Shown: piece after piece, positions 51,843 to 53,186 of the stretch | Layout: each line of letters opens with the position of its first letter | Position numbering within the stretch: position 1 is the first letter of the stretch | DNA from: Psychroflexus planctonicus | GTDB lineage: Bacteria; Bacteroidota; Bacteroidia; Flavobacteriales; Flavobacteriaceae | DNA length: 64,000 bases | Assembly (NCBI RefSeq): GCF_014640195.1 | Contig: NZ_BMGM01000004.1 | Coordinates: 186,001-250,000 of the forward strand | Direction: 5' to 3' | Notes under the pieces: model-generated | Seen by the model: only the letters and a program-made list of their open reading frames with translations | Database searches by the model: none | What the model was told of the DNA's origin: nothing | Translations under genes and position numbers: made by a program

Positions 51843-51874
51843 TTGCTTTTTTTTCTGAATTAATTTTATATTTG
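51843..51874 (+). promoter_or_regulatory. Promoter of tRNA-Gly
   Basis: TTG at 51843-51845 and TATATTTG at 51867-51874 (exact TAnnTTTG) are separated by 21 bp. The predicted start is just before the tRNA 5' end at 51883. Confidence 0.7.
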
Positions 51875-51882
51875 CAATAATT

Positions 51883-51955
51883 GCGGGAGTAGCTCAGTTG
51901 GTAGAGCGTCAGCCTTCCAAGCTGAATGTCGCCGGTTCGAACCCGGTCTCCCGCT
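51883..51955 (+). tRNA. tRNA-Gly (anticodon TCC)
   Basis: A 73-nt tRNA: acceptor GCGGGAG/CTCCCGC, D-arm beginning AGCTC, anticodon loop CTTCCAA with anticodon TCC (reads GGA glycine codons), T-loop GTTCGAAC. The discriminator base is T and CCA is not encoded. Its last 16 bases also open a downstream 111-bp repeat. Confidence 0.97.
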
Positions 51956-52293
51956 CAACGAAACCTTACTTGAAAATGAGTAAGGTTTTTTTATTGAAGA
52001 AGTTTGAAAATATTTGCCGGGTGAGAAGTATATGCTCGAGAAATCGAGTAAACCCGGTCTCCCGCTCAACGAAACCTTACTTGAAAACGAGTAAGGTTTT
52101 TTTATTGAAGAAGTCTGAAAATACTTGCCGGGTGAGAAGTTTATTCTCGAGAAATCGGGTAAACCCGGTCTCCCGCTCAACAAAACCTTACTTGAAAATG
52201 AGTATGGTTTTTTTATTGAAGAAGTCTGAAAATACTTGCCGGGTGAGAAGTTTATGCTCGAGAAATCAGGGTAAATCCAGTCTCCCGCTCAAC
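51940..52293 (+). repeat. 111-bp tandem array seeded by the tRNA-Gly 3' end
   Basis: Copies begin at 51940 (inside the tRNA), 52051, 52162 and 52274 (partial), giving three complete units and a last one of about 20 bp. Periods are 111, 111 and 112 bp. Each unit has the tRNA 3' end (AACCCGGTCTCCCGCTCAAC or near), a terminator hairpin (AAACCTTACT ... AGTAAGGTTT plus T run), and a segment with CCGGGT and a CTCGA-GAAA-TCGAG hairpin. Units 2 and 3 share changes not found in unit 1, so the array probably grew by tandem duplication. No integrase is nearby. Confidence 0.92.
51961..51992 (+). terminator. Terminator of tRNA-Gly (repeated in each array unit)
   Basis: A perfect 10-bp stem (51961-51970 and 51979-51988) with a run of seven T downstream ends the tRNA transcript. 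The same hairpin recurs about 111 and 222 bp later; the third copy has one mismatch in its stem. Confidence 0.85.
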
Positions 52294-52552
52294 GTATTGA
52301 AATTGTACTGCAATTGAATCTGTCATTTCCGCACGAACTAAAGCGAGACGCGAAATTTGTTTGTTTTTGATAGCGATATTTCTGTTTACTTACTTTGCGT
52401 CTAGCGCATAACGAAAGTGACAACCTAAAAAGCGAAACTTTTCACTTTGTTTATCTAAAGGCTGGCAAAGGCAGGTTAAGCCTTCACATTATAAATACAC
52501 AAAACTCTCCTTTCATCAAAAATTTAGTCATTTTTGTTGTGTGTCTATGTTG
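52294..52552. other. Gene-free stretch between the tRNA array and HepT
   Basis: No gene was found. Parts such as CTGTCATTTCCGC and CGAAAGTGACAA form an imperfect inverted repeat, reminiscent of intergenic repeats in flavobacteria, but I cannot define it. Its base composition is similar to the neighbours. Confidence 0.4.
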
Positions 52553-52894
52553 CTAGTGCTTTCCCATCATGATCTGGATCTCTTTTTTCAATTCAGGTAG
52601 TTCTCGAACTATTATTGTCCAAATAACTTCGTCAGAAATGCTATCATATTCGTGAGCGATTCTATTTGGAGTTCCGATTATCTTTTGAGCGGTGTTTATT
52701 TGAAAATTAGATTCTTTGTGTTTAAATATTCGGTTTATTGCTTCTCCGATTATTTCAATATTTCTTTCAACTGCTTTTTTTGTTTTTAAGTCTTTTTGAT
52801 ACTCAAAGAAATTTCTTTTTTCGGGTAAAAACTCAAATATTTCATCAATAGATTTAATTATGTCTTCAAACCAAGCATTAATTCTATTGTCCAT
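52553..52894 (-). CDS. HepT-like (DUF86) protein of a HepT/MntA toxin-antitoxin pair
   Basis: This 113-residue helical protein belongs to the HepT/DUF86 family, HEPN-type RNases whose activity is blocked by the MntA nucleotidyltransferase. The segment IEIIGEAINRIFKHK and the C-terminal IWTIIVRELPELKKEIQ are characteristic. The catalytic motif normally reads R-x4-6-H-x-Y (often RNRLxHxY); here it is TPNRIAHEYD (75-84), with proline P76 where the first Arg is expected, while H81 and Y83 remain. The gene overlaps mntA by 11 bp. RNase activity may be lost or depend on R78. Confidence 0.88.
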   Translation of the reverse strand: MDNRINAWFEDIIKSIDEIFEFLPEKRNFFEYQKDLKTKKAVERNIEIIGEAINRIFKHKESNFQINTAQKIIGTPNRIAHEYDSISDEVIWTIIVRELPELKKEIQIMMGKH

Positions 52895-53186
52895 AAATCA
52901 GAATTTTTGTGCTATCAAGCTCTTTTCTGAAAAATTGATTTTTTATTCCACGTTCTTCAATTAAGTCAATTTGTTGCTGAAATAATTTTTCTAAACTCTC
53001 TTTGAGTTGAAAATATAAGTCTGTGTATTTAAAAGGATCTGTTTCATCAAAATCAACAACGAAGTCAATATCAGAATCATCTTTAAAATCATCACGAGTA
53101 ACAGAGCCAAAAGCGGAAAAAGTCTTTACTTTGTATTGTTTACAAAGTTTCTTAATTCGATTAATATTTTTTTCAGATATTTTCAT
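52884..53186 (-). CDS. MntA-like nucleotidyltransferase (antitoxin of HepT/MntA pair)
   Basis: This 100-residue minimal nucleotidyltransferase carries the exact antitoxin motif GSx10DxD: G27-S28, then D39-I-D41 (AFGSVTRDDFKDDSDID). The third acidic residue may be in the DLIEERGIKN strand near its end. In described systems MntA polyadenylylates HepT and neutralises it. It is the first gene of the pair and overlaps hepT by 11 bp. The pair lies just downstream of the tRNA-Gly repeat array, a likely insertion site. Confidence 0.9.
   Translation of the reverse strand: MKISEKNINRIKKLCKQYKVKTFSAFGSVTRDDFKDDSDIDFVVDFDETDPFKYTDLYFQLKESLEKLFQQQIDLIEERGIKNQFFRKELDSTKILIYGQ

Follow-up and report, generated by a model that had tools for sequence, protein, structure and literature searches.

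Behind the tyrT tRNA gene of Escherichia coli lie about three tandem rtT units of 178 bp, each of which opens with nucleotides from the tRNA 3' end and has a terminator inside, and this arrangement is found at one tRNA. REP sequences are palindromes whose partner, RAYT, is a Y1 transposase, and the attC sites of integrons are imperfect hairpins with a bulge and a variable terminal structure that occur in tandem cassettes. Repeats of tRNA tails, REP hairpins and GIY-YIG genes next to tRNAs are known singly; to our knowledge, no unit had been described in which both arm and end match whichever of many tRNAs it follows. According to excerpts of the Islander paper, a displaced tRNA fragment stands at the far end of integrase islands (PMC4383910). 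In phage T6, the GIY-YIG homing endonuclease SegB drives tandem amplification of the tRNA-Tyr/segB segment (excerpts of PMC13096335), and segB genes cluster with tRNAs in the same excerpts and in passages of PMC2988022. Here, an array behind a tRNA-Gly gene of Psychroflexus planctonicus is compared with these systems. The reading to which an even chance is given is that the array consists of three tandem, ORF-less units of a GIY-YIG-linked class of elements that sit at tRNA ends, mainly in Flavobacteriaceae. Apparently, the unit represents a family of tiny structured elements, undescribed so far, at the ends of many tRNA genes.

The window is a stretch of 64,000 nucleotides (positions 186001-250000 of contig C4 of genome G000), to which all coordinates refer unless a locus is named, and the array is present once in that genome. 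The host gene, tRNA-Gly(TCC), occupies 51883-51956 on the forward strand (ARAGORN; Rfam tRNA, 73.7 bits), and the copied tail consists of its final 17 bases (51940-51956, +). Unit 1 (111 bp; 51957-52067, +) comprises a terminator stem, a linker, a hairpin module and a tail copy at 52051-52067; unit 2 (111 bp; 52068-52178, +) closes with a tail copy at 52162-52178 and unit 3 (112 bp; 52179-52290, +) with one at 52274-52290, which has two changes, the hairpin of unit 3 having one additional base. TRF delimits the array at 51940-52294 (period 111, 3.2 copies, 94% matches, score 631), and a repeat search found 111-nt copies at 51940, 52051 and 52162, with 100, 95 and 92% identity to the first, as well as four tail copies at spacings of 111, 111 and 112. 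The tandem 111-bp array that the initial annotation had placed at the end of this tRNA is thus real by ARAGORN, TRF and the repeat search, and its view that the tRNA 3' end seeds the array is upheld, since the final 17 bases of this gene recur as a copy at the close of every unit. It had also given each unit a terminator: terminator-like stems were recovered by pattern scan in unit 1 (51960-51989, +, with a T-run) and unit 2 (52071-52100, +), and that of unit 3, though missed by the scan, is discernible by eye. Units 2 and 3 do carry common changes that are missing in unit 1, as had been noticed; at one of those sites their GTTTAT is the family consensus, so unit 1 is the derived one there. 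A second tandem repeat, of 240 bp and 2.1-2.4 copies, lies far from the array at 1609-2189.

Within unit 1, the 5' arm of stem 1, GCCGGGT (52016-52022, +), is paired with the start of the tail copy (52052-52058) and is followed by the conserved bulge GAGAAGTATA (52023-52032, +; family consensus GAGAAGTTTA) and the apical hairpin CTCGA-GAAA-TCGAG (52034-52049, +). The identical arm recurs at 52127-52133 and 52238-52244 (+) in units 2 and 3, whose bulges start at 52134 and 52245 (+). Two open frames, of 105 aa (51866-52183, -) and 139 aa (51898-52317, +), stay open through the array because 111 bases amount to 37 codons, and they are likely to be spurious and mis-annotated as proteins. In its number of tandem units, roughly three, in their position after a tRNA gene and in the bases they share with its 3' end, the array resembles that of E. 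coli tyrT. An Rfam search of the window stretch and 16 loci returned nothing above the gathering score except tRNA and rRNA, and no match to the RtT family.

A BLAST search with a single unit matched 29 of 299 family genomes, G000 included, many of them solely in the last 50 bases; 11 such last-50-base loci were scanned, and 10 lay behind tRNA-Gly(TCC), with a contig end truncating the remaining one (L038). A covariance model, R1, built from 17 elements of the tRNA-Gly type, also matched behind tRNA-Trp, Thr, His, Leu, Gln, Ala, Ile and Met, where the elements end in the tail of their own tRNA instead. A further model, R2, built from 50 elements of many tRNAs, matched 19 of 27 genus genomes (E<=0.01; the other eight were without a module match), 101 of 299 family genomes (E<=0.001) and 22 of 345 genomes of a phylum sample, 11 of these 22 lying outside the family. 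Of 13 out-of-family places listed, 12 were read: six have an exact tail behind a tRNA (Leu caa twice, Lys, Leu cag, Arg and Ser), two consist of the REP-like part only, and four are without a tRNA in the stretch read, two of these being cut by a contig end. In a phage collection, the best 20 of 322 records were matches of tRNA-Gly size and no record covered 80% of the query. Among the matches listed from the open-access literature, no title or abstract start described such units.

A total of 157 R2 matches (150 listed from the family search and 7 more from G000) were examined, and 143 of them have a same-strand tRNA upstream. With small end offsets allowed, the 14-base tail is identical to that of the upstream tRNA in 110 cases and differs by one mismatch in 18 (together 128 of 157), spanning 13 tRNA kinds; the remaining 15 of the 143 tails have 2-6 mismatches. 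Given equal slack, the best other tRNA kind came within one mismatch in 7 of 143 cases and was exact in none, and every other kind was further off than the own tRNA in 131 of 143. These matches bear on an explanation without any element, in which the 3' end of the tRNA gene was simply duplicated in tandem or multiplied by replication slippage; slippage was the main alternative named in the initial annotation. Perfect or near-perfect tandem units with local copies of the terminator speak for it, but slippage cannot place one bulge-hairpin module, with an arm adapted to the tRNA, behind 13 tRNA kinds. It is a good account of the growth and other copy-number change of a single array; as a full account it is refuted by the conserved module behind many other tRNAs, and the explanation as a whole is held to be extremely unlikely.

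Because both R1 and R2 were trained on elements that hold tails, named genomes were also scanned with a check pattern of 31 bases that covers the bulge and REP-like hairpin only. It gave at least 143 matches in at least 119 stretches. Among the matches listed, a tRNA lies on the same strand within 2 kb upstream of 128, 117 of 125 comparable tails have 0-1 mismatch (99 are exact), and 13 tRNA kinds are represented, Pro, Ser(cga) and Leu(taa) being new among them; a further 15 of those listed are without a tRNA in the stretch, 7 of which start less than 150 bases from its upstream edge. The 80 titled stretches listed are mostly from Flavobacteriaceae or genera thereof. Three are titled otherwise (candidate division CPR2, Candidatus Shapirobacteria and Balneolaceae), with exact tails at Ser, Pro and Leu, and any of the three may be a misbinned contig; the CPR2 and Shapirobacteria units (L352 and L364, behind tRNA-Ser and tRNA-Pro) reflect either a wider spread or misbinned contigs.

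The consensus unit runs in the order arm, GAGAAGTTTA, hairpin, R-A and tail, and the copied tail spans approximately T-loop base 58 to base 74 of the tRNA. In 135 distinct elements, the bulge is exact in 108 and the base preceding the paired tail, which we take to be tRNA position 58, is A in 128. Standard pairs fill 86.7% of cells in alignment A2 versus at most 54.0% in slid versions, two-sided changes number 128 versus a shuffle mean of 50.0, and the covariation score is 0.559 versus 0.278, all of which the slide and shuffle controls flatter because the structure was drawn from the same, related sequences. The arm changes with the tRNA, arm and tail being GGGAC/GTCCC at Thr, GAGAC/GTCTC at Trp and Leu, AGGGT/ACCCG at Gly (four pairs), TGGAC/GTCCA at Met and CAGAC/GTCTG at Ile. 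Arm-tail pairing averages 4.33 of 5 versus 3.57 with tails shuffled (sd 0.06, maximum 3.75, 2000 shuffles; n=124), and at least 4 of the 5 arm pairs are present in 121 of the 143 matches listed from named genomes. The eight core pairs hold 887 Watson-Crick, 129 G.T, 24 A.C and 40 other cells; this excess of G.T over A.C indicates that the folded strand is the tRNA-sense strand, as RNA or as that DNA strand.

The apical hairpin is a REP-like TGAGCGNAGTCGA in most aligned relatives, which is the likeness to REP, and varies to CTCGAGAAATCGAG in the window, CCGTTGTATAACGG in G020 and CCCGA..TCGGG in several out-of-family cases. Unlike REP/RAYT, then, the hairpin is replaceable, the unit is tied to tRNA ends and there is no clear link to a Y1 gene. 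A RAYT/Y1 transposase was considered as a partner: PF01797 is found in 13 of 21 genomes and does not discriminate, and G014 has two module matches and no PF01797. The imperfect bulged hairpin, its variable terminal structure and the tandem units are also like attC, and the units could be imagined as tiny cassettes moved by a recombinase that acts on a folded single-strand site at the T-arm. The stem with extrahelical bases, the variable apical hairpin, the cassette-like tandem units and a two-gene insert behind tRNA-Leu in G157 that ends in a module would suit this explanation. Unlike attC, however, the arm follows the tRNA and not a fixed box, so that a conserved R box was not found, and the GIY-YIG units described below offer a simpler partner; cassettes of this kind are therefore considered very improbable.

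Equilibrium folds were calculated for 83 first units together with their tRNA, under a model with no modifications and no folding order. The tRNA 5' end pairs with the copied tail at 0.81 and with its own tail at 0.09, a preference that is nearly unchanged when the arm is kept unpaired, and the mean probability of stem 1 is just 0.117. In the predicted fold of window unit 1, the entire unit sits in the T-loop, like an intron. The modelled preference for the copied tail would suit a tentative and rather doubtful variant, that of a tail-swapped tRNA, in which a target-adapting selfish element, copied by a GIY-YIG nuclease and having an intron-like T-loop fold, has its hairpin rebuilt to match whichever tRNA is entered; the arm would become complementary to the T-arm and the end would become the tail, giving the tRNA two interchangeable tails. 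A masking idea, in which the hairpin hides the extra tail and thereby lets the tRNA fold correctly, found no support: keeping the arm unpaired raised copied-tail pairing by more than 0.05 in 7 of the 83 folds and lowered it in 10.

Comparison of copy number among relatives, which had been proposed from the window alone, found that the number of units varies. Behind tRNA-Gly(TCC), there are three units in G000, three in G020 (the last tail shortened), two in G019 (the second tail shortened), one in G024 and none at the remaining genus loci examined. The spacer between tRNA-Thr(TGT) and tRNA-Tyr is empty in G007 and G025, where the tail is followed by TATTATCAGATT. In G008 and G004, which spacer similarity marks as the closest relatives of these two, it is filled and the same trailer comes after the last tail; G003 and G010 are filled as well, with a similar trailer. 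The filled and empty sites place the unit exactly after base 74 and before the native trailer, and this spacer provides presence and absence at one intergenic site among relatives, for ORF-less units only; the empty sites can also be explained by precise loss through tail-tail recombination. Decayed units occur in G002 and G013, and decayed tails in the Thr(TGT)-Tyr spacer of G008 and G010. At the site in G012 that is orthologous to the window array, judged by a neighbouring ClpP that is 92% identical, there is a decayed tRNA-Gly with no units (L031 1501-1572, G012:C5, -). Core identity is 0.854 between different tRNAs in one genome (42 pairs), 0.858 for the same tRNA across genomes and 0.836 for others. 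Spread within genomes found no support, module cores being no more alike than expected (398 of 2000 permutations at or above the observed value).

These distributions bear on another explanation, in which the unit would be a putative structured RNA of the host that is co-transcribed with tRNAs and regulates their 3' processing, termination or decay, the tandem copies providing dosage. Consistent with it are the sense-strand wobble bias and strong covariation, the fixed orientation, the usual distance of 50-125 nt from the tRNA to the first tail copy behind it, the terminator-like stems in two window units, a unit located between tRNA-Ile and tRNA-Ala next to 16S rRNA in G245, and units inside a Thr-Tyr-Gly-Thr tRNA cluster. 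However, units are patchy among close relatives and the decayed copies lie in four of their genomes, no Rfam family was matched, and stem 1 is improbable on average in the equilibrium folds. A host RNA is accordingly regarded as unlikely, if conceivable.

The initial annotation also raised the possibility of an attachment region or a scar of repeated integrations, and pointed to a HepT/MntA pair within 300 bp of the array. Pfam confirms the pair as a HepT-like gene (52553-52894, -; PF01934), the end of which is about 260 bp from the array, and an MntA-like nucleotidyltransferase gene (52884-53186, -; PF18765/PF01909). Both are neighbours outside the element, on the opposite strand and beyond the last tail, and the relatives' stretches compared contain only one weak MntA-like match (31%), at a GIY-YIG locus. 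Cargo was rejected on these grounds, and a role of the pair in the array is not supported. A scar left by tyrosine-integrase islands that repeatedly integrate and excise, with tail copies as att cores, was weighed in the same way. In excerpts on such islands and on archaeal tRNA disruption (PMC4383910, PMC3293823), a tail copy restores the tRNA and a displaced fragment marks the far end, which the units share; a direct repeat of the tRNA 3' end is present at both borders of the array, and in G000 a 6-kb integrase island does lie between tRNA-Leu and units. Unlike integrase islands, the units measure approximately 64-118 bp without an integrase, have one module over many tRNA kinds (13 in the R2 matches) and an arm complementary to the tail. 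By eye, no integrase was seen among ORFs of at least 80 aa at 48-58 kb of the window, seven of which were domain-searched, and none lies between the tail copies, where units of 111 bp are crossed by the 105 and 139 aa frames only. As the one island end that was read is also unlike the module, an integrase scar is judged highly unlikely.

That island, in contig C10 of G000, separates tRNA-Leu(TAG) from two family units (L254 1497-7526, L190 960-1330). It encodes a 474 aa integrase-like protein (PF13102 above the cut-off, PF00589 slightly below), and its end bears no resemblance to the unit with which it was compared. In G157 (L252 1639-3425), genes for a Peptidase_M78/IrrE-like and a DUF4411/PIN protein lie between tRNA-Leu and the module, as if carried by a larger unit, and in G183 (L253 2577-4400) an ISL3-type transposase gene (PF01610) lies between tRNA-His and units of which the first module is seemingly shortened. 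Of the 14 R2 matches (among 157) that lack an upstream tRNA, five belong to these three places and have an insert, five are at contig ends, one (G000:C6) is only a REP-like core, two are in G050, with units behind tRNA-Leu 57 kb upstream, and one is in G149. Orphan units were thus rejected as proof of independent mobility, the three orphan-looking places being explained by later insertions between tRNA and unit, a point that also counts against an integrase scar.

The GIY-YIG-linked reading draws on units that carry a nuclease gene. In G170 and G546, tRNA-Asn is followed by units with a GIY-YIG ORF of 95-102 aa (PF01541, on translations made by eye), the 3' end of which enters a partial tRNA-Asn copy with an inserted palindrome and then the tail or an altered tail. 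A GIY-YIG unit precedes a module unit at tRNA-Met of G023, two different GIY-YIG units stand in tandem at tRNA-Asn of G010, where no module was seen, and eight tandem GIY-YIG matches in G003:C34 lie behind the 3' part of a tRNA-Met and before a module, with no full tRNA in the stretch. G342, which is not a family member, has a GIY-YIG match with tRNA-Lys on one side and a weak module on the other; tRNA-Met of G103 and of G291 has a GIY-YIG ORF directly against its 5' end, with modules beyond its 3' end. The window's own array has no GIY-YIG unit; it is sister units elsewhere that carry PF01541.

PF01541 is found in 26 of 27 genus genomes, by a profile that also matches UvrC-like long frames. 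Among 29 of the 30 search-derived GIY-YIG loci, three have a tRNA 39-62 nt upstream, and all three have a tail copy 75-98 nt past the domain; since only these three have a tRNA just upstream, most GIY-YIG genes are not tied to tRNA 3' ends. Within L280-L329, a biased set of 30 search-derived and 20 hand-picked loci, tblastn gave 68 hits, which fall at 61 distinct GIY-YIG places. At 20 of these places a tRNA precedes on the same strand within 1.5 kb, and a tail copy also lies downstream at 11 of the 20; at 6 of the 61 the end of the ORF is where a tRNA begins. Among loci L001-L279, which overlap in part, a GIY-YIG match is present in just 7 of 279. Numbers of units and of GIY-YIG matches are correlated over 27 genomes (rho 0.51, p 0.007) and over the 23 genomes that are at least 90% complete (rho 0.48, p 0.02), both uncorrected for kinship; G006 has 13 GIY-YIG matches and no module match.

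These loci resemble SegB of T4 and T6, as excerpts describe it, in that a GIY-YIG gene occupies a tRNA region, the tRNA locus shows tandem amplification and insertion is intergenic; they are unlike it in being located on bacterial chromosomes, with short units that hold a copied, hairpin-modified tRNA part, and in having ORF-less members. The hairpin units are probably small passengers of a larger selfish element. This reading is supported by the tail matches, the arm-tail pairing and covariation, the filled and empty sites, the GIY-YIG units that end in tRNA copies, the correlation of numbers and the SegB precedent. Counting against it are the few unit loci with a GIY-YIG match, the many GIY-YIG genes away from tRNA 3' ends, G006, the eight genus genomes that lack a module match, the module cores that are no more alike within a genome, and the window array, which has no nuclease unit. 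A GIY-YIG nuclease, acting in trans, would break DNA at the tRNA end, and repair would then copy the unit into the break in a homing-like manner, the tail copy keeping the tRNA whole. Recombination between tails could make, enlarge or delete tandem arrays, and the tRNA-specific arm may be kept by selection on the folded sense strand. If this is right, a structured element that has no name so far sits at essential tRNA genes in approximately a third of the sampled genomes of a large bacterial family (101/299), and each copy shows its host tRNA, making covariation with the tRNA readable across genomes as a natural experiment. Small GIY-YIG genes would be tied to parasitism of tRNA ends in bacteria, tandem growth at tRNAs would have a mechanism, as it does for SegB in phage, and the spurious 105 and 139 aa frames would be explained by a repeat of 37 codons. 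It would also serve as a warning against taking every tail copy behind a tRNA for an integrase att site.

Other arrangements of GIY-YIG ORFs and tRNA copies were encountered among the loci. At L316, L319, L326, L210 and L238, GIY-YIG ORFs abut or enter the 5' end of the tRNA (Arg, Met), and at L316 upstream tandem units contain copies of the tRNA 5' part with palindromes inserted. Behind tRNA-Tyr (L012, L022, L079 and L090) lies another copy of the T-arm, consisting of GCAGGTTC, a palindrome in place of the T-loop, CTGC and the tail, which is a separate solution of the same plan.
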